Below are positions 29,609 to 39,559 of a stretch of DNA of 64,000 nucleotides, piece after piece. The notes beneath the pieces are model-generated. The model had not been told where the DNA came from. It worked only from the letters and a program-made list of their open reading frames with translations, and searched no databases. The position numbers and the translations under genes are program-made. Source of the stretch: Rhizomicrobium sp. (GTDB lineage: Bacteria > Pseudomonadota > Alphaproteobacteria > Micropepsales > Micropepsaceae); contig JBBCGJ010000001.1 in assembly GCA_037200985.1 (NCBI GenBank), forward strand, positions 1,154,756 to 1,218,755, given 5' to 3'. Each line of letters starts with the position of its first letter. Within the stretch, counting starts at the first letter, position 1.

Positions 29609-30430
29609 ATGGCCGTCAAACGCGAGAAAATCGCCACCTGCGATCCGATCTGGCATGCCCTGCGGGAGCAGGCGGAGACCCTCTCCGAGCGGGAGCCGGC
29701 GCTGGCCAGCTTCGTGCACGGCGCCGTGCTCAAGCACGACCGGCTGGAGAACGCGGTCTCCTATCACCTGGCCAAGAAGATCGGCTCGGAAGACCTCTCG
29801 CCGATGATGATGCGCGAGATCTTCGAGGAGGCGATGACGGCCGACCCGGCGATCGGCGACGCGGTGCGCGCCGACCTCGCGGCGGTGTTCGACCGCGACC
29901 CGGCCTGCAAGGCGCATATCGAGGCCCTGCTGTTCTACAAGGGCTTCCAGGCGCTCGAATGCCACCGCATTGCTCACTGGCTGTGGCACCAGAACCGCCG
30001 CGCCATGGCCCGCTTCTTCCAGAGCCGCATCTCGGAATTGTTCGGGGTCGACATCCATCCCGCCGCGAAGATGGGCAAGGGCATCATGATCGATCACGCC
30101 ACCGGCGTGGTGATCGGCGAGACCGCGGTGGTGGAGGACGACGTCTCCATCATGCAGGGCGTGACGCTCGGCGGCACGGGCAAGGAGTCCGGCGATCGCC
30201 ATCCCAAGGTGCGCCGCGGCGTGCTGATTTCGCTCGGCGCCAAGATCCTCGGCAATATCGAGATCGGCGAGTATTCGCGCATCGGCGCCGGCAGCGTGGT
30301 CCTGAAGGCGGTGCCGCCGGGCTGCACCGCGGTCGGCGTGCCGGCCCGGCTCACCAACTGCGCCGCCGGCGGCCGCCCGTCGCACGAGATGAACCAGGTC
30401 ATCGAATACGACCAGGACAAGAGCGGCTGA
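29609..30430 (+). CDS. cysE: serine O-acetyltransferase
   Basis: Makes O-acetylserine, the cysteine precursor. 273 residues: an N-terminal helical domain with WHALREQAE, then the left-handed beta helix of hexapeptide repeats with DIHPAAKMGKGIMIDHATGVVIGE, IMQGVTLGGTGK and the catalytic His. ATG 29609 follows a GGGAG site; the upstream ATG in the frame is less likely. It is the last chromosomal gene before the transposon. Confidence 0.94.
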   Translation: MAVKREKIATCDPIWHALREQAETLSEREPALASFVHGAVLKHDRLENAVSYHLAKKIGSEDLSPMMMREIFEEAMTADPAIGDAVRADLAAVFDRDPACKAHIEALLFYKGFQALECHRIAHWLWHQNRRAMARFFQSRISELFGVDIHPAAKMGKGIMIDHATGVVIGETAVVEDDVSIMQGVTLGGTGKESGDRHPKVRRGVLISLGAKILGNIEIGEYSRIGAGSVVLKAVPPGCTAVGVPARLTNCAAGGRPSHEMNQVIEYDQDKSG

Positions 30431-30436
30431 GGTCGA

Positions 30437-30466
30437 TTCACGCGGAGCCGCGGAAAACGCGGAGTT
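30437..30466. repeat. outer inverted repeat, left copy
   Basis: TTCACGCGGAGCCGCGGA followed by AAACGCGGAGTT. The reverse complement recurs at 37906-37936 with about two differences, outside the transposon. It is chromosomal and predates the insertion. Confidence 0.65.
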
Positions 30467-30506
30467 CTGGCGTGGTTTGTTTTGAGTCGATCATCATAAG
30501 AAGGTC

Positions 30507-30584
30507 GTCATTGCCCGGCTTGTCCGGGCAACCCATTTTTCTCGCCGCCAAATTGGGTCGCCCGCATGAAGCGGGCGATGACGG
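30507..30584. repeat. GTCAT/ATGAC palindromic repeat near the transposon
   Basis: CGTCATTGCCCGGCTTGTCC at the left end and CGGGCGATGACG at the right, with inner hairpins CCCGG..CCGGG and GCCCGC..GCGGGC. It lies 30 bases before the transposon insertion site. Confidence 0.75.
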
Positions 30585-30606: not shown

Positions 30607-30614
30607 TGAACCTC
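30607..30614. repeat. left 8-bp target-site duplication
   Basis: TGAACCTC immediately before the left terminal repeat. The identical octamer is at 37904-37911 immediately after the right terminal repeat. Confidence 0.9.
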
Positions 30615-30639
30615 CGCCATTATGGCGCAAACACACCTT
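30615..30639. repeat. left terminal inverted repeat (25 bp)
   Basis: Starts CGCCATTATGGCG and continues CAAACACACCTT. The outer 13 bases are themselves a palindrome. It is an exact reverse complement of the right end. Confidence 0.93.
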
Positions 30640-30681
30640 ACGCTCCTAGGTTCCTGAAACGTTCGGCGCTATTTAGTTGGA

Positions 30682-31068
30682 ATGGCCGAACGTCACGTCA
30701 TCACCGCATTAACCGCAAAACGTAAGCAGATCGAACGGCTGGTCCGGCTACTTACGAAGAAATTGCAGGTAGCAAACGCTGAACTGGAAGCTATCGAAGC
30801 CGCATTTCGCATCTTCAAGGCCGACATCGCTCTATCTGCGCCGCCAACAAGCCGTCCGGCGTTTGGAATATCTAAAGGTGATTCTTTGCGGGCCGTATTT
30901 CGGGTTCTCCGCGCAGCACCTAAGCCTCTTAACACGTGGCATCTCACCGAACTCCTCATGCGGGAGCGCGGATTACCGCCAGACGACACAAAGCTCTACC
31001 GCACCATGGAACAGCGTTTGCGCGCATCACTGAATTACTATCGGCGGACGAAAGGTGTTCTCAAATAG
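30682..31068 (+). CDS. coiled-coil plus winged-helix-like accessory protein
   Basis: 128 residues: an N-terminal helical, coiled-coil-like region with a repeating heptad look (KRKQIERLVRLLTKKL, ELEAIEAAFRIF), then a compact C-terminal domain SLRAVFRVLRAAPKPLNTWH with a predicted winged helix. The same architecture is seen at 36583-37239, with alignable blocks KG..R.V...LR.A..PL and ELEAIEAA/LSAIETV. I recall this as a common uncharacterised alphaproteobacterial family. First gene inside the transposon. Confidence 0.7.
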   Translation: MAERHVITALTAKRKQIERLVRLLTKKLQVANAELEAIEAAFRIFKADIALSAPPTSRPAFGISKGDSLRAVFRVLRAAPKPLNTWHLTELLMRERGLPPDDTKLYRTMEQRLRASLNYYRRTKGVLK

Positions 31069-31153
31069 TCGCGAGGGCCTGACGGACTGGTAGTATGGGA
31101 AATAGCGCCACGCTAGAACGAGAATGGTTGCGGGACAATGTCGGTACGCGGAA

Positions 31154-31621
31154 CTAAGGCTTGATCCGAAGGTACATTTCGAAAACGTCCCATGCGATGA
31201 AGAAGATCGCCCCGATGATGAGGAAATAGAATTGCAAACGAGCGTAAGTGCTTGTCCGTTTCGAGTTTGATTCGATTGCATCGCGAATGCCGCCGCCAGC
31301 GGCTTCCATCATCTGCGGATGACTCCCGACTTTGGGATGTCGTCCACTTTCAACCTTGAGAAGCTCGAAATTCGCAAACAGGGTTGAATCAACGTACCGC
31401 AGATTCATACACCCAGAAAAGAAGCTAAAGCCCCAACACAACACGGCAGTCCCGAGCGGAATCTGAGAAAGAGACAGAACCATGTCCTGACTTCTTGTCA
31501 CTGCGAAAGCGATGGCGGCACCGGCAGCCGCGAGCATAAAATAGGTGTAGCGTTCTTGGGAGGCGCGTTGGGTTCGATACAGTTCAATTTCCATGTCGCT
31601 GGACATGTGCGCCGCTTTCAT
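31154..31621 (-). CDS. small membrane protein, three hydrophobic segments
   Basis: 155 residues with hydrophobic helices at about 26-40 (YFMLAAAGAAIAFAV), 54-69 (IPLGTAVLCWGFSFF) and 131-146 (FYFLIIGAIFFIAW), with a ~60-residue soluble stretch before the last. The start may be the ATG at 31621 or 31606; neither has a strong ribosome site. No family was recognised; the layout of two close helices plus a soluble part is seen in several effector families, but I do not claim membership. Confidence 0.6.
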   Translation of the reverse strand: MKAAHMSSDMEIELYRTQRASQERYTYFMLAAAGAAIAFAVTRSQDMVLSLSQIPLGTAVLCWGFSFFSGCMNLRYVDSTLFANFELLKVESGRHPKVGSHPQMMEAAGGGIRDAIESNSKRTSTYARLQFYFLIIGAIFFIAWDVFEMYLRIKP

Positions 31622-31728
31622 ATTTGGGCTGTAGATGATGTTGGGCGGACGCTATTTCGGTTTGCGTCCACTCGAAAGCGGGTTCGGCAATTTATCCACG
31701 GCTCATGCGCTTTGAACCGACGTTCCGT

Positions 31729-31932
31729 CTATTGAAGCAGGTCCAACGGCTTCACGCCCAGCACCTTCGCGAACTTCTCAACGACTTCCAGAGTCGGATT
31801 GCGCAGGCCGCGCTCGATCTGCCCGACATAGGTGACGGCAAGATCAACCTCGTCTGCCAACACCTCCTGACTTAACCCGCGCTCTTTGCGGATTCGCCGG
31901 ACATTGATCCCAAGGACTCGCGCCAGTCGCAT
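31729..31932 (-). CDS. XRE-family helix-turn-helix regulator
   Basis: 67 residues, almost entirely a Cro/CI-type HTH: RRIRKERGLSQEVLADEVDL, then YVGQIERGLRNPTLEVVEKFAKVLG. It is likely a local repressor. It is divergent from the membrane protein at 32008 with a 75-base gap that would hold both promoters. Confidence 0.85.
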   Translation of the reverse strand: MRLARVLGINVRRIRKERGLSQEVLADEVDLAVTYVGQIERGLRNPTLEVVEKFAKVLGVKPLDLLQ

Positions 31933-32007
31933 AGGCGAAGGCGGAACGATTTGTTAAGGCCACACCAGTCACTATAGTGATGACTTTTGGTTGTAAGCGA
32001 GCCGGAC

Positions 32008-32496
32008 ATGATCCGCTGGTCGTTCGTCTGGAAAGGGGCCCTCATTGGCGCGGCGCTCTATGTGCCGTTGATCATATTCGTCAGGCTGAACTCTCAGCCA
32101 TCGCCGCAGTCTTCTTCCGAGCGTCACAGCTTCGGCATCGATCCCCGGAATACCGAACTGCACTCAGACAATATCAGACGGATGCCGGGCGACATATTGG
32201 GGTCTCGGCTGTACCTCTCAATTTACAGCGCAAACAGCATTGTCGGGCTGAAAATTCGGGATGGCGTGGTCGCTTGCGGCGTTGGCGAGGATATAGAGGT
32301 TCAGTTCGATGATGGCCCTGTGGAGGTCTACACCTGCCATCAGGAGCGAGAGGCGGAAGTAACGTTGTCGGATGGACCAGCGATCCTCGACAACGCCGAG
32401 CAGTTCATTGCGGGGATAAGAAAGGCGTCATCCGTGACGATCAGCCCGTTGCTCATGGGCAAAGGTCGCGCCGACTTTCATTTTACGGCGCGCTAG
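32008..32496 (+). CDS. hypothetical protein with N-terminal membrane anchor
   Basis: 162 residues. The N-terminal helix (about residues 5-25, FVWKGALIGAALYVPLIIFV) anchors it, leaving a periplasmic domain with a conserved-looking region VEVYTCHQER and a C-terminal SVTISPLLMGKGRADFHF. ATG at 32008 is chosen; a TTG at 31987 is also open. The stop overlaps the 3' end of the next minus-strand gene by 14 bases. Function unknown. Confidence 0.6.
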   Translation: MIRWSFVWKGALIGAALYVPLIIFVRLNSQPSPQSSSERHSFGIDPRNTELHSDNIRRMPGDILGSRLYLSIYSANSIVGLKIRDGVVACGVGEDIEVQFDDGPVEVYTCHQEREAEVTLSDGPAILDNAEQFIAGIRKASSVTISPLLMGKGRADFHFTAR

Positions 32497-32893
32497 AGGG
32501 CGAACACCATGCTTCCGGATTACGGCGGCGAATTGTGTGAAATGAATCTTCGTTCCCGCTGTGTGGCAGAAACTTGAAGCTCCGCCGTTCACTCTCGATG
32601 CCTAGTGGCGTTATGTCGAAAATTGTGCCGTCCGGACGCCGCACGATGGAATGAGCCACGATCTTCCACATCCAGAATTGGTCATGTTCCTGTAACAGCC
32701 AGCCCCGAACTGAATCGCAATCCGGATTGTCCGAGACATATTTATCGGCATTGTCGTGGCAGTGTGCGACCTCCGGCTTCGATCCGTCATGGAATATTAC
32801 ATTCGGATCAAACGAAACGGAGACCGCTTGCAGGCGAGATTTGAGGAGGTCCTGAAAGAACTCCTCGTCTGAAGGAAGCACACCACAACGCAT
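32483..32893 (-). CDS. hypothetical protein with a CHDN/AHS/D motif set
   Basis: 136 residues. The pattern CHDNADKYV, then VRGWL, then WKIVAHSIVRRPDGTIFDITP recalls a family of small accessory proteins with conserved Cys/His-Asn, His and Asp positions, which could be an active site. I cannot name the family. Last gene of the minus-strand cargo operon; it overlaps tail to tail with the gene at 32008. Confidence 0.6.
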   Translation of the reverse strand: MRCGVLPSDEEFFQDLLKSRLQAVSVSFDPNVIFHDGSKPEVAHCHDNADKYVSDNPDCDSVRGWLLQEHDQFWMWKIVAHSIVRRPDGTIFDITPLGIESERRSFKFLPHSGNEDSFHTIRRRNPEAWCSPSSAP

Positions 32894-32917
32894 CTCAAGC
32901 GTCCCAATTTGATCAGG

Positions 32918-33250
32918 CTAAACGAAGCGGATGAAGAACAAATACGCTCCGGCCAGCAAGCTCACGCTCGCCAAGATCGACAGTATCCCGTCCCAGCGCG
33001 TTCTAATCGCGCTCGCAACAGCAGCTAGAATGAGACCCGACACAAACCAAATCGCCAAGCCAGTGAGCCAGCCTTCGGCCGCTACCGATGCGTAAATAGC
33101 AGCAAAACCGGCGAGGATACCGCCTAAGATCAGAGGCACGCTCAAAATCTGCGACACTTGGGATATGTTCTCATAGCCCGCTCGACGGACCATCGTGCCT
33201 GTGACGGCGGCGAAGTTCAGAAGTAACGCGGGCAATATTATATCGATCAT
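32918..33250 (-). CDS. small four-helix membrane protein
   Basis: 110 residues with about four hydrophobic helices (LPALLLNFAAVTG, VPLILGGILAGFAAIY, LTGLAIWFVSGLILAAV, ILASVSLLAGAYLFF). The ATG at 33250 is preferred over 33271, as GGGACGG sits just upstream. Unknown function; part of the minus-strand operon. Confidence 0.6.
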   Translation of the reverse strand: MIDIILPALLLNFAAVTGTMVRRAGYENISQVSQILSVPLILGGILAGFAAIYASVAAEGWLTGLAIWFVSGLILAAVASAIRTRWDGILSILASVSLLAGAYLFFIRFV

Positions 33251-33518
33251 TTCCGTCCCGCCCATTCGCATAACGTCCCGAGCCTATCAGAAATGCCAGC
33301 CACCAGAGGCATGTGCGTTGATTCATCTAAGGTCATTGCGTGTACGCTAGTGCGCCAAATTCTTGACTTTTCCGATAGGTGTGATAGTGATTTTCATGCG
33401 ATGAATCGCGCGGCGCGCATCTCGCATCTCAAACACCAATACGGAGATTCAGTTGGCTGACGCAGTCGATGCGCCAATGACGCATCTATCCGGCATACGA
33501 GAGATCGGTGCCGAATCG

Positions 33519-34292
33519 TCACAGGACGCTCGAAATGCTCCTAATGAACTCAACGACAAGCTCGCGCGCTTCCGCGAGCGTTTGCGTAGCCGTCTTACCT
33601 GCGCGAACCTTGATCCCCCGAAACACTACGTTGAGCGGGATGGCTTTGAAGTCATCATTCAGTTCGAGATTGTGGGGAGCAACGAGCAATACGAGGCACT
33701 GATTAGTCGGGTGCCAGTGCATGCTACCGATGCGAACTCCGCGCCGTGCCTTGAGCCGGGCCACAAGGTGTTCGCTGGGAACGGGCGCTACTTCGAGAAT
33801 CTGCTTCATGTGCCCTCCGGCAACGCTTCTGAGAATCCAGAATGGCTCGCCATCCCTTCCGCCGTGCGGATCAAGCGAGCGGATAAGTTCACCAACGTCC
33901 TCGGGAAATCTCGCTATTTCTCGTTGGAAACGAGCCGGTTCCTGTGGTCCCTTACCAAAAGACGCGGGGAACGCAGCACGCCCCTCACCGGGAAGTGCGA
34001 TGCGCTGCACGATGTCATCGAGAACGCCCCACAGTCCGACCATGATGGACTTGGCGTCGGCACTGAGGGTGCGGAGAGCAGCGTCAGTTTCTTCGTAAGC
34101 CCGGATTGGATTTCTGCGGACCACGAGATTTACCTGCTGATGGGCCGCATGAGGTTGTTTCTCGGCTTCCATCGAGAACGGTTTGAGTTTGAGGAAGGCA
34201 TTGACCGCCTTATCGAAGTTCGCGATGTCCATTTCGGCCCGCTCGGCTTTCCCGAGCGCGTCCAATAGGCAATCTTCGAGATCGATGTCCAT
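33519..34292 (-). CDS. uncharacterised accessory protein, related in layout to the next gene
   Basis: 257 residues. The N-terminal half (FDKAVNAFLKLKPFSM, then LWGVLDDIVQRIALP) resembles an accessory family with a HNLRSALDHL-like helix, in which here ..GLWGVLDDIV takes that place. PFWILRSVAGGH follows. The opposite strand also carries an open frame, but this strand fits better in context and in composition of the protein. 82 bases downstream of a probable paralogue at 34374. Confidence 0.6.
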   Translation of the reverse strand: MDIDLEDCLLDALGKAERAEMDIANFDKAVNAFLKLKPFSMEAEKQPHAAHQQVNLVVRRNPIRAYEETDAALRTLSADAKSIMVGLWGVLDDIVQRIALPGEGRAAFPASFGKGPQEPARFQREIARFPEDVGELIRSLDPHGGRDGEPFWILRSVAGGHMKQILEVAPVPSEHLVARLKARRGVRIGSMHWHPTNQCLVLLVAPHNLELNDDFKAIPLNVVFRGIKVRAGKTATQTLAEARELVVEFIRSISSVL

Positions 34293-34373
34293 GTCGGCGC
34301 TCTCGCAGGATTCGGCTTGGCCCCATGCGCCGAAGCTGCTTCGTAAAATGCCCTGATGCCGACTAATGTTCTC

Positions 34374-35090
34374 TTAAGGCGACCCCAAGAGCTTCTCAGC
34401 ATTCTCGACGACATCCCGCAAATGTGCCGACGTTGACGAGAAAATCGTCGTCGGATCGCAATTCGCCTTCGTTGCGATGCCTTCGATCCTGAACTGAATC
34501 AGCGTCAGCACGGGTTGTGCCGGATCGGCGTCAACCGCCTGAAATGTGAATTCATCGTTCTTGGTGAAATGGTCGCCGGGAATCTCGACGACGCTTTGGC
34601 TCTTGTCGGGTTTGAAGTAGGCAACCCCGCATGCGCTCGATGTCGTCGGCGACAAGCTCCAGTGCTTCGCACTATTGGAAAGCTGCTTCACGAGGATAAT
34701 GTGTGACAGCCACATCTTGTGCTTTTTTCTGGCGTCCGCGATGACGCCGCTGAATGCGGGACCGACGCGAACACCAATCGCCAGCATGCGTGTGGCAAAC
34801 TCACCGTCATCCTCGCAGAACGGGTAATAGAGGTTCGGCTTCTGCGCACCGCCATTCAGTTTCAAGCAAGCCGCCAGAGCTTGGTCATGCGCGTGGACAA
34901 GATTGTTTGCAACATCAGAGACAATGGGCTTTAGCCCGTTCAGTACTTCTCGGTCGATGCATAATCGGTAGTGAGGGCCTGAGTAATGAACCTTCCAAAC
35001 CGACTGCGTGGTTCGATTGTATTCAGCGACATGAGCCTGCGCCCTCGTCAGCAGCGCCTTTGCATCGACGAATGGATCAGGCTTTTGCAT
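34374..35090 (-). CDS. uncharacterised accessory protein
   Basis: 238 residues, predicted soluble. Contains VANNLVHAHDQALAACLKLNG, a helix reminiscent of the HNLRSALDH-type helix of the accessory family suggested for its neighbour, and later NSAKHWSLSPTTSS. The pair at 33519 and 34374 may be distant paralogues. It begins 18 bases after the DUF6471 gene, in the same operon. Function unknown. Confidence 0.6.
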   Translation of the reverse strand: MQKPDPFVDAKALLTRAQAHVAEYNRTTQSVWKVHYSGPHYRLCIDREVLNGLKPIVSDVANNLVHAHDQALAACLKLNGGAQKPNLYYPFCEDDGEFATRMLAIGVRVGPAFSGVIADARKKHKMWLSHIILVKQLSNSAKHWSLSPTTSSACGVAYFKPDKSQSVVEIPGDHFTKNDEFTFQAVDADPAQPVLTLIQFRIEGIATKANCDPTTIFSSTSAHLRDVVENAEKLLGSP

Positions 35091-35108
35091 CAGGATTTGT
35101 GCCGCCTG

Positions 35109-35366
35109 CTAGGCCAGGTCACGCAGATCAAGTGAAGCACAGCCCATCACCTTCAAACACATCAACAGGAACGCCGCCGAGAACTCACCCCGCGCTACCT
35201 TGTTCCGGAGGTTGCGCTCATTCTCATGGACGCCCGCTTTATCTAGTAACTCCGCAAGCTCCCCATAGCTGAGATCGCGCTTCGCCATCTCGACGCGGAT
35301 GATCCGGCGCGCCCAATCGTGAGCCTCGCTCGCCACCTCTTTATCGATCTCGATTTGCTTTGGCAT
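35109..35366 (-). CDS. DUF6471 HTH-like regulator
   Basis: 85 residues matching DUF6471: WARRIIRVEMAKRDLSYGEL, LLDKAGVHENERNLRNKVARGEF, then SAAFLLMCLKVMG. The arrangement is helix-turn-helix-like. It heads the minus-strand operon and faces the transposase gene across a 67-base gap with a palindrome, so it may regulate both itself and transposition. Confidence 0.75.
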   Translation of the reverse strand: MPKQIEIDKEVASEAHDWARRIIRVEMAKRDLSYGELAELLDKAGVHENERNLRNKVARGEFSAAFLLMCLKVMGCASLDLRDLA

Positions 35367-35382
35367 CGTTAACCTTAAGCCT

Positions 35383-35409
35383 ATCTATGGTGCATAATTC
35401 ATCATAGAT
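35383..35409. promoter_or_regulatory. operator candidate between DUF6471 and transposase
   Basis: ATCTATGGTG (35383-35392) and CATCATAGAT (35400-35409) form a 10-base inverted repeat with one mismatch and a 7-base spacer. A related half, CATCATCTACGATG, appears again near 35449. The site is in the divergent promoter gap. Confidence 0.55.
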
Positions 35410-35433
35410 GCTGCTTTTGTTTGATATACGTTC

Positions 35434-36459
35434 ATGTTTCGTGCTATAGCATCATCTACGATGCAAAAGCGCAGGCGGGCACGATCTCAGCATTTTCTTC
35501 TCTCGGCCAAGGCCCGGACCCTGAGTCTGATGGAGGTCGCCCGGATGTCGGATGACGACGCCTACAAACGGTTCCGGAGCGTGCGGTTCGCTCAGAATGA
35601 CGGCGAGCCATTCTGCTCTCTGTGCGGCTCTCTCGGGGTCTATGAGTTCGAGTGCCGCCACATTTTCAAGTGCAAGGGCTGTGGGAAGCAATTCTCGCTA
35701 ACGACCGGTACGATCTTCCACGGTCGCAAGATGGCCTATCGCGATCTCCTGATGGCGATTGCGGTGTTTGTGAATGGCGTAAACGGTCATGCCGCGCTCC
35801 GCCTCAGCCGCGATCTTTGCGTCTCCTAAAAGACGGCTTTCGTCCTCGCGCACAAGCTGCGGGAGGTGTTTGGCGCGCTCCAGACTCCGCACAAGCTCAC
35901 CGGCATTGTCGAGATCGACGGTATCGTGGTTGGCGGACACATAACGAAGGCCAATCAGAAGAAGGACCGGCGGGATCGGCGCAAGAACACGCTGAAGCGC
36001 CAAACAATTGTGAACATGCGAGAACGGCGTCCCGGTGGGCGCACAATTTCGTTTGTGTGCAAGAACGAAGCTGACGCACTGCCGGTCATCCTCGCGCACG
36101 TTGATAAAGCGGCCAAGGTTCGCACGGACGAGGGCGCGTCTTGGCAGATTTTCCCCGCGTATTTTACGGACTGGAAAGCTGTCAATCACTCCGTCGCTTA
36201 CATGATCGACGGAATTCATACCAATTGGGTTGAAGGCTTTCACTCGCGTATCCGGCGTGCGGAGCGCGGCATTCACTGCCGTATCTCAGGTCGGCATTTG
36301 CAGGGCTACGCTGATGAATTCGCGTGGCGCGAGGATCATCGCCGTATCGATAACGGCACGCAGTTCGCCATGCTGATGAAGGCGAGCGCGGGCCAGCCCA
36401 AGTCAGCGAAGTGGGGCGGATACTGGCAACGCCATTTGCCGAAGCCGGTGCCCGCATGA
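35434..36459 (+). pseudogene. IS1595-family transposase with in-frame stop
   Basis: The N-terminal zinc ribbon has FCSLCG and FKCKGCGKQFSLTTGTIF. The first part ends at TAA 35827-35829; the same frame resumes with KTAFVLAHKLREVF and carries the DDE-type core (VEIDGIVVGGH, RTDEGASW, HTNWVEGFHSRIRR) to the stop at 36457. The context TCC TAA AAG suggests a Tyr codon (TAC or TAT) turned to TAA in a conserved SYKTAF block. Length otherwise normal (~341 codons). Start ATG at 35434 or 35461. Confidence 0.88.
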
Positions 36460-36656
36460 TTATCGAGTTCAAGCGCGGCAAGCAGCGGTACGAGATCAAA
36501 CCACAGGGTTGCGTCTTCGTGGGTTATGTCGATGGCGTACCAACCATTATCGGAAAAAGAATCGAAGTCGTTACTCGTATGCTCATCGAGAAGCGTATGG
36601 GAGGTCGGACGATGGCTGAGATTGTCCCGTTTCCGAAGGAGCCTGCGGAGCGTTAG
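36456..36656 (+). CDS. small protein coupled to transposase
   Basis: 66 residues, IIEFKRGKQRYEIKPQG at the start and AEIVPFPKEP at the end. Its ATG overlaps the transposase stop (ATGA), suggesting translational coupling. It overlaps the 3' end of the minus-strand gene at 36583 by 74 bases. No family was recognised. Confidence 0.55.
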   Translation: MIIEFKRGKQRYEIKPQGCVFVGYVDGVPTIIGKRIEVVTRMLIEKRMGGRTMAEIVPFPKEPAER

Positions 36657-37239
36657 GTGGACGCTTCAAGCGCATCCGCGCTGCGGGGTTCGGTAGCACG
36701 ATGCCGATTTTTGCGTTCGGTTTGGATTGACGATTTCTTCCCGCCCTAGCTTGTTCTTTTGGAATCGCGACCCACCGCATCGGTTTATAGCTGACGACTT
36801 GAGCAGTTCGCCCTTCCCGACCCTTTAGCGTCAGGTGTATGTCACTTTCGATTCGTGAAATCTCTCGTTCGTCTGGCGGTTCAATTCTCAGCCGTGCCGC
36901 CACCATGCGAGCCAGTTCCCGTCGAGAAAGCGGAACCGTCGCGTCGCGAAGTATCGCATAGACAGTCCGACTGATCGCCCCCTTTGTTACATGCTGCTTG
37001 CGTGGGTAAGTCGGCCTGACTTTCGCCGGGTCCCAATCGGGATCGAAAAGCCAAATCACCGTTTCGATGGCCGAAAGCTTTTCATCGAGGTCCTTCTTAC
37101 GAAGATCGCAGCGGTTGGTCGCCTCAATGATTGCGTCAAGGCCAACGGCATCCTCGGTTAGCCGCTCGGCGAATTCATATTCACCGAGGAGTTTTGCGTA
37201 TTTCTTCGATAGGATGGAGACGACTAGCGGCACGGCCAT
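36583..37239 (-). CDS. coiled-coil plus winged-helix-like protein, paralogue of 30682
   Basis: 218 residues. Helical N-terminus with CDLRKKDLDEKLSAIETVIW and LFDPDWDP, then KGAISRTVYAILRDATVPLS, a winged-helix-like domain also found at 30682-31068. A basic, proline-rich tail of ~60 residues is extra. Sits at the other end of the transposon from its paralogue. The 3' end overlaps the small plus-strand gene, which adds doubt to the exact length. Confidence 0.65.
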   Translation of the reverse strand: MAVPLVVSILSKKYAKLLGEYEFAERLTEDAVGLDAIIEATNRCDLRKKDLDEKLSAIETVIWLFDPDWDPAKVRPTYPRKQHVTKGAISRTVYAILRDATVPLSRRELARMVAARLRIEPPDEREISRIESDIHLTLKGREGRTAQVVSYKPMRWVAIPKEQARAGRNRQSKPNAKIGIVLPNPAARMRLKRPPNAPQAPSETGQSQPSSDLPYASR

Positions 37240-37345
37240 ACGCTTAGAGTGCAGCGCCAGACGTTAAATCTAGGCAAGTAAAGTTGGTTAAGAGTCGGCG
37301 ACCGGATACAATGGGCAAGAATCGCGACGCGGACTGAGTATTCTA

Positions 37346-37867
37346 ATGAGCAACGACTGGATGCTTGGAGGCAGTCGCGAAGTGCGATCATGGCACGACC
37401 AGATGCAGGTGTGCTTGAACGGCCACCGCATTACTGCCAACGCGCTGGGATCGCCTGAATTCCGCGAAGATTTTTGTTCGCGCTGCGGCATGCGCACAAT
37501 CATGGCATGCGAAAAGTGCCGGACACCGATCCAAGGCGAATACCATGTGGAAAACGTATTTGCCGTGGGCATGAATACGCCCGTTCCCAAATATTGCACG
37601 AAGTGTGGCTCGCCCTATCCGTGGCAAGAAGCAGCCATAGAGAATCTGAAAGAGGCACTGCGCGAGGGCGGCTTAGACAGCGCCGACATTCAGGCGGCTG
37701 AGTTGGCCCTTCCGGACATCATGCACGACACGCCGAAAACTGAACTGGCATCGCTGAAGTTCGGGCGGATTCTCAAGAAACTTGGCAAACCGGTTTACGA
37801 GGTTGCGATCAAGGTCGTCACCGATGTGGCGTCGGAGGCCGCGAAGAAGGCGCTTGGTCTCGGCTAG
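37346..37867 (+). CDS. DUF2321 zinc-ribbon protein
   Basis: 173 residues. Four Cys-x2-Cys-like pairs in the first half: QVCLNGHRIT, FCSRCGMRTI, CEKCRTPIQG and YCTKCGSPYPW, matching DUF2321 (zinc-ribbon). The C-terminal half is helical and ends with a hydrophobic VYEVAIKVVTDVASEAAKKAL. Function of the family is unknown. Last gene of the transposon, 12 bases before the right terminal repeat. Confidence 0.8.
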   Translation: MSNDWMLGGSREVRSWHDQMQVCLNGHRITANALGSPEFREDFCSRCGMRTIMACEKCRTPIQGEYHVENVFAVGMNTPVPKYCTKCGSPYPWQEAAIENLKEALREGGLDSADIQAAELALPDIMHDTPKTELASLKFGRILKKLGKPVYEVAIKVVTDVASEAAKKALGLG

Positions 37868-37878
37868 GGTGTTTGCCC

Positions 37879-37903
37879 AAGGTGTGTTTGCGCCATAATG
37901 GCG
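37879..37903. repeat. right terminal inverted repeat (25 bp)
   Basis: Starts AAGGTGTGTTTGCG and ends CCATAATGGCG, exact reverse complement of the left end. A near copy of GTGTTTGC precedes it at 37869-37876. Confidence 0.93.
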
Positions 37904-37911
37904 TGAACCTC
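37904..37911. repeat. right 8-bp target-site duplication
   Basis: TGAACCTC directly after the right terminal repeat, identical to 30607-30614. Confidence 0.9.
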
Positions 37912-37936
37912 CGCGTTCTCCGCGGCTCCGCGTGAA
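37906..37936. repeat. outer inverted repeat, right copy
   Basis: AACCTCCGCGTTCTCCGCGG then CTCCGCGTGAA, the reverse complement of 30437-30466 with about two differences. It overlaps the right target duplication by 6 bases, so the target site lay at the edge of this older repeat. Confidence 0.65.
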
Positions 37937-37967
37937 AATATCGGTGCCGTTGCCCACCGGCTCAGGC

Positions 37968-39224
37968 TCAAAACAGATCCGCCCACTTCAGCAGCGTCAG
38001 CGCTGCCGTGACCATCGGCTTGCGCAGCAGCGGACCGCCGGGGAATTTGCGCGGCGGCACGCGCGCCAGGATGTCGAACCGCTCCGCCCGGCCGAGCGCC
38101 GCTTCCGCCAGTGCCTTGCCGCCCAAGACCGACAGAGCGACGCCATGACCGGAATAACCGTGGCCGAACAGGACGCGCGATCCGAGGCGTCCGAAATGCG
38201 GCATGCGCGTGCGCGTGATGCCGACCGTGCCGCGCCAGCCATATTCGACGGCAACATCCGCCAGGCCGGGAAACACCTTGAGCATGCGCGGCCGAACCAG
38301 CGCCATGATGTCCGACGGCGGGCTCCAATAGCTTTCTCGCCCCGCGAAGATCAGCCTTCCGTCGGCGCTCTTGCGGTAATAGTCGAGGACATGCCGCGTA
38401 TCGGCGACGGCGACGTCGCTGGGCAAGACGTTCGCGTTTATCGCGCCGAGCGGCTCGGTTGCGATGAGGAAGCTCTCGACATGCGCAATATAGGGCGCGA
38501 GTTCGGGCGCCAGCGCGCCGCCGAAGGCGTCGCAGGCCAGCACGATATGATCGGCGCGAATGCGGCCATAGGCGGTCGCAACCACACCGTCGTCGCGGCC
38601 GATGGCGAGGGCAGGGCTGTCCTCATGCAGAACGGCGCCGGCCGCCGCTGCAAGCGCCGCAAGCCGCCGCGCGAATTTCAGCGGATGAAGATGGCCGCCG
38701 CCGCCGTCGAACCGCGCGGCGGGATAGGCCGTCGCGCCGAGCGTCGCCGCGGTCTCGCCACCGTCCAGCATGCGCAATTCGTGATAGCCGTACCGTGCTT
38801 CGAGATACGCGGCCTCTTCGGACAGATCCCGCGCGGCACGCGCATTATGCGCGGCGATCACGAGGCCGCGCTTCAGGTCGCAGCCTTCGCGCGCCAGTTC
38901 GAACACGAGCGCGCGCGCCTCCTCGCTCAGCCGCCACAGATCGCGCGCCTGGCTTTCGCCGAGCCAGGCTCCGAGTTCCGTCTGCTCCTTGCGGTGGCCG
39001 GGATGGATCTGGCCGCCATTGCGGCCCGAGGCCGCGAAACCGATGGTCTCGGCCTCGATGAGCACGACCCTGGCGCCGGCCTGCGCGGCATGGAGCGCCG
39101 CGGACAGGCCTGTGTAGCCGCCGCCGACGACGCAGATATCGGCGCGGATCTCGCCCGCCAGCGGCGGCCGCGGCGGCGATACCGCGGCGCTGGCGGCGTA
39201 GTAGCCCTGGGGTTGCGCGTTCAT
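37968..39224 (-). CDS. FAD-dependent amine/D-amino acid oxidoreductase
   Basis: 418 residues, DAO-type flavoprotein: VVGGGYTGLSAALHAAQAGARVVLIEAE dinucleotide fold (first 50 residues), ASGRNGGQIHPG, and C-terminal GHGYSGHGVALSVLGGKALAE. The layout matches gamma-glutamylputrescine oxidase (PuuB)-like enzymes, but the substrate cannot be set. First gene beyond the transposon's right end; no neighbouring catabolic operon. Confidence 0.9.
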   Translation of the reverse strand: MNAQPQGYYAASAAVSPPRPPLAGEIRADICVVGGGYTGLSAALHAAQAGARVVLIEAETIGFAASGRNGGQIHPGHRKEQTELGAWLGESQARDLWRLSEEARALVFELAREGCDLKRGLVIAAHNARAARDLSEEAAYLEARYGYHELRMLDGGETAATLGATAYPAARFDGGGGHLHPLKFARRLAALAAAAGAVLHEDSPALAIGRDDGVVATAYGRIRADHIVLACDAFGGALAPELAPYIAHVESFLIATEPLGAINANVLPSDVAVADTRHVLDYYRKSADGRLIFAGRESYWSPPSDIMALVRPRMLKVFPGLADVAVEYGWRGTVGITRTRMPHFGRLGSRVLFGHGYSGHGVALSVLGGKALAEAALGRAERFDILARVPPRKFPGGPLLRKPMVTAALTLLKWADLF

Positions 39225-39328
39225 GGCTGCGTCCTTGCGCGAGCCTGGGGCGCAAGGTCAAGCTCGGGCCTTGACCGGGCCCGGCACGCGTGCAAGTTGG
39301 ACCTTCCCTTCTTCTTCCGGAGACACCG

Positions 39329-39559
39329 TTGACCCGCAGCGAAATCTGGCGCCTCGAGAAATATCTGCGCAACCTGTTCCGCCTCGACACGATCACCATC
39401 GTGGAGCGGCCCAAGCAGGCGGATTCGGTCGAGGTCCAGGTGGCCGGCGAATTCATCGGCGTGATCTTCAAGGACGAGGAAGACGGCGAGACCTCCTATG
39501 CCTTCAACATGGCGATCCTGGAAATGGATCTGCCGGAAGCGCCGTCGAGCCGGACGTAA
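39329..39559 (+). CDS. DUF3126 family protein
   Basis: 76 residues: starts TRSEIWRLEKYLRNLF, then ITIVERPKQADSVEVQVAGE and VIFKDEEDGETSYAFNMAILEMDL, the whole of the DUF3126 family. The start is a TTG at 39329 preceded by CCGGAGA; the longer open frame upstream is not conserved with the family length. Function unknown; common in Alphaproteobacteria. Confidence 0.88.
   Translation: MTRSEIWRLEKYLRNLFRLDTITIVERPKQADSVEVQVAGEFIGVIFKDEEDGETSYAFNMAILEMDLPEAPSSRT

Follow-up and report, generated by a model that had tools for sequence, protein, structure and literature searches.

Organization of the locus

Positions 30615-37903 of the window, the 64,000-nucleotide stretch of Rhizomicrobium DNA analyzed here, are occupied by a cargo transposon of 7,289 bp that, judged from its sequence, belongs to the IS1595 family and left an 8-bp duplication of its target on insertion. 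It carries a broken transposase gene, a divergently oriented gene with a DUF6471 domain, and further cargo. The features are given below in order along the window; c2 is our own label for the third recurrent gene of the related loci.

30607-30614, no strand: target duplication, left copy, 8 bp, identical to 37904-37911
30615-30639, plus strand: left terminal inverted repeat, 25 bp, a perfect inverted match to 37879-37903
30682-31068, plus strand: c2-type accessory gene adjoining the left end; clusters with transposase-adjacent genes of other loci; no Pfam match
31154-31621, minus strand: cargo ORF (ORF call), no Pfam match
31987-32496, plus strand: cargo ORF (ORF call), no Pfam match
32483-32893, minus strand: cargo ORF (ORF call), no Pfam match
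32918-33271, minus strand: cargo ORF (ORF call), no Pfam match
33519-34292, minus strand, and 33453-34268, plus strand: overlapping cargo ORFs (ORF calls), no Pfam match
34374-35090, minus strand: cargo ORF of 238 aa, without relatives among the loci compared; frame 34377-35108 has no Pfam match
35109-35366, minus strand: DUF6471 gene, intact, candidate XRE-type repressor (PF20075, predicted model, structure alignment)
35398-35480, no strand: operator-like array in the divergent promoter region, made up of two sites (35398 and 35441) plus a palindrome (35449-35464)
35461-36459, plus strand: IS1595-family transposase, broken (PF12760, PF12762, NF033547)
35827-35829, plus strand: in-frame TAA (sequence; alignment to relatives)
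36583-37239, minus strand: second c2-type accessory gene, convergent with the transposase (gene clustering); no Pfam match
37346-37867, plus strand: cargo gene, DUF2321 (PF10083, E 1.1e-47)
37879-37903, minus strand: right terminal inverted repeat, 25 bp, matching the left end at 25/25 positions
37904-37911, no strand: target duplication, right copy, 8 bp, identical to the left copy at 8/8 positions

At most one of the two overlapping ORFs is likely to be real. Since the window element has two c2-type genes where other elements have one, it may be a fusion of two elements. A single gene comprising DUF6471 and the 238-aa ORF, split by a TAG, was considered and rejected, because in the loci whose DUF6471 ends were read the frame stops 0-10 codons past the domain match and the 238-aa part is without relatives in the loci; longer DUF6471 frames do occur, in L026, L032 and a few others.

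Element ends and insertion site

The terminal repeats of the window element score 25, compared with a maximum of 14 in shuffled sequence, and its GC content is 0.552, with values of 0.661 and 0.693 in the 5-kb flanks. For the insertion-site search, 10.5 kb of the window was compared with 69 genomes of the genus, among which G028 is the closest relative. In G028, the matches to window positions 30000-30583 (90%) and 37909-39558 (88%) lie only 42 bp apart, the 42-bp gap itself having diverged, so that it is not base-for-base the pre-insertion site. G046 and G022 are likewise uninterrupted, with longer unaligned gaps. Because the closest relative lacks an insertion at this site, the insertion is fairly recent, and the perfect ends and duplication, together with the three uninterrupted genomes, bear out the suggestion of the sequence-only reading that the element was mobile not long ago. 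The locus is no simple insertion sequence; a point that the sequence-only reading missed is that it is a cargo transposon of 7.3 kb carrying a candidate repressor.

Just outside the element ends, chromosomal sequence forms a near-perfect inverted pair of 28 bp (30437-30464 and 37909-37936), and on account of this pair the insertion may sit in an intergenic repeat. A domesticated transposase without ends was also considered, and was dropped when the uninterrupted sites in G028 and the other genomes put the ends further out. When terminal repeats were sought up to 800-900 bp beyond DUF6471 and the transposase, in the 45 of the 48 unique loci with enough sequence, none stood clearly above shuffled sequence; two loci, L093 and L127, beat their own shuffle maximum by one. 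The automatic list of inverted repeats for the window spanned 33300-38000 and fell short of the left end, placing the 25-bp ends outside its reach.

A stop codon within the transposase frame

The TAA at 35827-35829 can be read directly from the sequence, in frame with the transposase ORF. Apart from this codon the frame is open, with 122 codons ahead of the stop (counted from the ATG at 35461) and 209 behind it, and third-position GC is 0.738 before the stop and 0.708 after. Among the 33 non-window loci that are readable at the aligned position (4 further loci, unreadable there, stand outside this number), Tyr stands in 29, with two instances each of Gln and Ala, and none of the 33 has a stop; among the relatives that also carry DUF6471 it is Tyr in 34/37. 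The earlier description, of one nonsense codon at a place where Tyr is expected and a frame that is open apart from it, is thus accurate.

The zinc ribbon (PF12760) is matched upstream of the stop (E 2.2e-8, 34.4 bits, cut-off 25.4), while the IS1595 DDE domain (PF12762, E 4.9e-34) and the NF033547 match (105 bits, cut-off 75) lie wholly downstream. The stop cuts off the whole of the predicted catalytic domain, and transposase activity has presumably been lost through it.

Divergence of the transposase

Transposases with fewer than 240 matched residues and duplicates were removed before counting, which reduced 102 proteins to 68, and L102 was excluded from the tree. The sequence-only reading had also held that the transposase is conserved on both sides of the stop. 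This stands insofar as the frame is open and D, D and E, which we take to be the catalytic motif, are present when the alignment is read by eye, but the protein is an outlier of its group. Of the 69 columns with conservation of 95% or more across 37 DUF6471-bearing relatives, it departs from 10, where any single relative departs from at most 6, and it differs at 5 of the 46 columns that are invariant in the other rows, compared with at most 3 for any other row. Its end branch in the tree of 67 transposases is 0.9, the median being 0.23.

Neutral decay was examined as the source of this long branch and rejected. Of all amino-acid-changing single substitutions in the frame, 98/2279 (4.3%) yield a stop, and about 160 extra replacements, a rough estimate from branch lengths, would have brought about seven stops; despite the long branch, the frame contains one stop and no frameshift. 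From this we infer that the bulk of the divergence probably dates from the time when the frame was still maintained, and that a long-divergent transposase, its frame open until recently, then gained the TAA. The departures at near-invariant residues raise the possibility that the transposase was altered before the stop appeared, or that the element was moved to its present site in trans.

Prospects for movement in trans

A 23-bp piece of the element end, searched for with up to 3 mismatches, occurs in this genome (G000) at the two ends of the element and nowhere else. This supports the earlier view that the element is fixed unless a transposase acts in trans, and with no other copy of the ends in the genome, such an enzyme would need to come from outside. 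The genome's two other IS1595 transposases (L003 and L004) are 29% identical to that of the window; the ends of L004 differ from those of the window element, and none were recognized for L003, making trans action by either enzyme unlikely. Without a second copy of the ends, and with both other IS1595 transposases distant, the element is probably stranded in this genome.

The same end piece, at the same threshold, is present in 4 of the 69 genus genomes, G000 included. One of these, G046, carries an element of 3,748 bp (L197:2388-6135) whose ends match those of the window element over 23 bp, one exactly and the other with 1 mismatch, and which is flanked by a 9-bp direct repeat. Starting at its left end, 364 bp containing the c2 gene are 76% identical to window DNA, and neither the C-terminal half of the transposase nor DUF6471 finds a match in it. 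This element is likely to be a non-autonomous relative, and since it shares the ends and has no detected transposase, trans movement within the genus has probably occurred. A plasmid search with the whole element returned a single record, alike over 64 bp, and a scan of genome contigs with the transposase protein read through the stop returned one distant locus.

DUF6471 and its association with the transposase

The window DUF6471 matches PF20075 at E 1.8e-25 (89 bits, cut-off 26.8). Its predicted model (pLDDT 93) is most like XRE and restriction-controller proteins, with Z up to 9.4 over 68 residues at ∼10% identity, and is to be read with VIA-align's own caveat that a Z below about 8-13 may stem from a common arrangement; Foldseek gave no match to the model at E ≤0.001 (best 0.28).

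In all 48 unique loci that hold both genes (84 before removal of duplicates), DUF6471 lies upstream of the transposase, head to head on the opposite strand. Of the 67 transposases in the tree, 53 form one fully supported clade, of which 43 are accompanied by DUF6471 and 10 are not, and DUF6471 is absent from all 14 members outside it. Three of the 10 clade members without DUF6471 have an unrelated helix-turn-helix (HTH) gene in the same divergent place, identified by HTH_31 and HTH_3:

L014:757-1101, HTH gene in the place of DUF6471; HTH_3 barely at its cut-off, HTH_31 below
L050:1159-1455, HTH gene in the place of DUF6471; HTH_31 and HTH_3 above their cut-offs
L051:2326-2559, HTH gene in the place of DUF6471; HTH_31 and HTH_3 above their cut-offs

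In the other seven, no regulator was recognized in 260 bp read by eye.

DUF6471 exceeds the cut-off in 34 of 398 phylum-sampled genomes, 25 of 69 genus genomes and 0 of 14 control genomes. After domains shorter than 50 residues or weaker than E 1e-12 were dropped, 71 unique DUF6471 domains were left, and for 23 of them the fetched stretch contains no transposase of this kind. The DUF6471 genes of family f190, which belongs to the same phylum and another class (L094, L098, L099, L101, L103, L104 and L105), likewise lack one in the stretches fetched for them, and may be regulators that stand alone.

The window DUF6471 departs from 1 of 10 columns at 95% conservation (others from up to 2), from 3 of 15 at 85% (others up to 4), and from 7 of 23 at 75% or more, the second highest number of 44 (others up to 8). 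The changes are largely conservative, and the protein would count as normal at the two stricter thresholds only.

An operator-like array between the divergent genes

The intergenic set covered 27 loci, and 26 of them, not the full 48 unique loci, entered the analysis; L041 yielded no intergenic stretch. Between the genes of these 26 loci there are 84 short palindromes, whereas 100 shuffles averaged 25.8 and never exceeded 45; because the count includes nested palindromes repeatedly and the shuffles were mononucleotide, we prefer a site scan as evidence. A 16-nt site, scanned as one direct plus one inverted copy, scored above all 156 dinucleotide shuffles in 21/26 loci. The direct sites start 42-44 bp apart in 20/26, and the inverted copy ends no more than 21 nt from the conserved transposase start in 25/26. 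In the window, the sites at 35398 and 35441, 43 bp apart, were placed by eye, the scan having picked another first site. Given the predicted fold, the gene arrangement and these sites, DUF6471 is most likely an XRE-type repressor of the transposase.

Survey of related transposons

Terminal repeats enclosing the transposase were found in 17 of 20 wide stretches around loci with DUF6471 and transposase, and none were found in L152, L153 and L156. By our own summary, the sequence of these repeats is close to CGGYATTATGTAGCAAACGCACCAA. When shifts of up to 3 bases were allowed, exact direct repeats of at least 8 bp adjoin 16 of the 17 elements, and one of 7 bp adjoins L143. Among 10 further clade loci, four of them without DUF6471, 8 have ends, 6 of these with direct repeats of at least 8 bp. 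L203 and L208 have ends with no direct repeat found beside them, and no ends were found in L201 or in L205, the latter a 4.7-kb contig. The wide stretches revealed ends for the elements of L050 and L014 (L200 and L202), not for that of L051 (L201). Run over 800-900 bp, the same routine found ends in 8 of 12 loci lacking DUF6471, and for L077 it gave a different pair from that read by eye. A second element could be bounded by an uninterrupted relative, that of G734 (L160), whose site is uninterrupted in G808.

The elements range from 2.5 to 7.6 kb, and the c2 gene occurs in 16/21 loci, the window included, where it occurs twice. Pfam named few of 42 other cargo ORFs picked from the 17 elements, 9 families in all, among them two with the antitoxin-type Panacea domain and one each with an IrrE-like peptidase, DUF3800 and PBECR3. 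PADLOC gave 20 model matches in the cargo, each in one member, including capP, RmrA and PD-T4-9_A.

ARAGORN called tRNA genes within the terminal repeats of 6 of the 17 transposons:

L143:7129-7220, tRNA gene, 92 nt, long variable arm, anticodon AAT (Ile)
L144:9441-9532, tRNA gene, 92 nt, long variable arm, anticodon CCT (Arg)
L146:7374-7465, tRNA gene, 92 nt, long variable arm, anticodon CCT (Arg)
L154:5551-5626, tRNA gene
L160:7137-7209, tRNA gene
L161:8743-8815, tRNA gene

Lying as they do inside the repeats, these tRNA genes may count as cargo. In L143, L144 and L146 they show an odd mix of body and anticodon. Two others, L145:6177-6250 and L151:5830-5906, stop short of the element's left end by 7 and 6 bp, respectively, and insertion beside tRNA genes may be favored.

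Discussion

The reading that we consider probable is that a recent cargo transposon lost its transposase to the TAA, kept its ends and its predicted DUF6471 repressor, and became non-autonomous. An IS1595-family element inserted at 30615-37903, duplicating 8 bp, and its transposase frame has a stop after 122 codons that cuts off the catalytic domain. Retaining perfect ends and an intact DUF6471, the element would persist as a repressor-bearing one that is presumably unable to move itself, no partner enzyme having been found in the genome, and that a related transposase from outside could in principle move. DUF6471 would bind the array between the divergent genes and shut down transcription of the transposase, as its fold, the arrangement and the sites suggest.

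By itself, the nonsense codon is commonplace, an ordinary inactivating mutation, and a sequencing error is possible. An error of sequencing or assembly in an intact transposase would account for a change confined to one codon where Tyr is expected, the rest of the frame being open, and the single assembly offers no independent check. However, the assembly consists of a single contig with a completeness rating of 100%, and an error in one codon leaves the transposase's near-invariant departures unexplained, so we regard this as unlikely. It is more improbable still that the TAA is read through, or that the 122-residue product with its zinc ribbon has a use of its own, such as competing for the transposon ends, and that the element is kept for that purpose. 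The N-terminal half, zinc ribbon included, is indeed intact, and the frame continues open for 209 codons past the stop; yet an open frame there is equally expected from a recent mutation, and with a stop in none of the 33 relatives, no conserved recoding signal is seen.

A separate question is whether DUF6471 controls the transposase or is a mere passenger; the passenger role we think doubtful. Other cargo includes antitoxin- and defence-like genes, for about a third of the unique DUF6471 domains (23/71) the fetched stretch shows no transposase of this kind, and the domain is missing from 10 of the 53 clade rows. The presence of ends and duplications in several compact plasmid relatives without DUF6471 indicates that it is not needed for transposition as such. 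Against a passenger role, the two genes lie on opposite strands in 48/48 loci while other cargo varies, their shared promoter region contains a conserved array of sites, and an unrelated HTH gene takes the same place in L014, L050 and L051.

If DUF6471 does regulate, a broader proposal can be made, which we offer tentatively and which may well prove wrong. DUF6471 would be a repressor devoted to controlling transposition in a widespread family of cargo transposons. It would act at a conserved operator of three sites, two of them direct and spaced by about four helical turns, the third inverted and located at the transposase start, and would have been replaced by other HTH genes more than once. 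The window element, its transposase dead, would now be an immunity-like locus, immobile yet repressing incoming relatives.

Following the TAA led to the true ends of a 7.3-kb element, suggested what the uncharacterized DUF6471 domain may do, and brought to light a set of small cargo transposons, several of which carry antitoxin- or defence-like genes and tRNA genes. The element is more interesting than its mutation, having kept its ends and candidate repressor while probably stranded, and the regulator hypothesis is directly testable. A literature search that reached few subscription journals found no paper naming DUF6471, and none that joined IS1595 with helix-turn-helix, divergently transcribed and transposase.

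Comparison with known systems

The predicted DUF6471 fold resembles restriction-modification controllers of the C.Esp1396I type and phage-type XRE repressors (Z up to 9.4). Controllers and repressors of this kind work through paired operators located beside a divergent gene. DUF6471 shares ∼10% identity with them, and its target, if it regulates at all, would be the transposase.

Within the genus, the G046 element (L197:2388-6135) is like that of the window in its ends and c2 gene, and differs in its size of 3,748 bp and in having no match to the transposase or DUF6471. Compact IS1595 copies on plasmids (L075-L078 and L080-L083, from Rhodovastum, Skermanella, Limimaricola, Tritonibacter and Paracoccus) belong to the same transposase clade and have similar ends; 8-bp duplications are visible by eye in L075 and L076, and in several copies a c2-type gene is convergent with the transposase, as in the window. 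In contrast to the window element, no DUF6471 was found in them, their ends lie near the transposase, and they have little or no cargo.

The window element has the DDE_Tnp_IS1595 domain, an N-terminal zinc ribbon, inverted repeats and an 8-bp duplication. In the IS1595 literature, the zinc ribbon is described for all groups of the family but IS1016, and 8-bp target duplications are described as usual (PMC8101967). The usual form, a single transposase gene and nothing else, is not what the window contains, since cargo is present; this leaves family membership unaffected. Passenger-carrying insertion sequences are termed tIS (PMC7986276), and MTnSag1 and tISCpe8 are described as carrying cargo and having 25-bp terminal inverted repeats (PMC5704250). 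Like these two, the window element combines an IS1595 transposase, 25-bp inverted repeats and cargo; unlike them as described, it has a divergent DUF6471, an operator-like array, c2-type genes and other cargo, and its transposase is broken. Because cargo-bearing IS1595 members or relatives with 25-bp ends are already known, the window element is best viewed as a variant within the tIS type.
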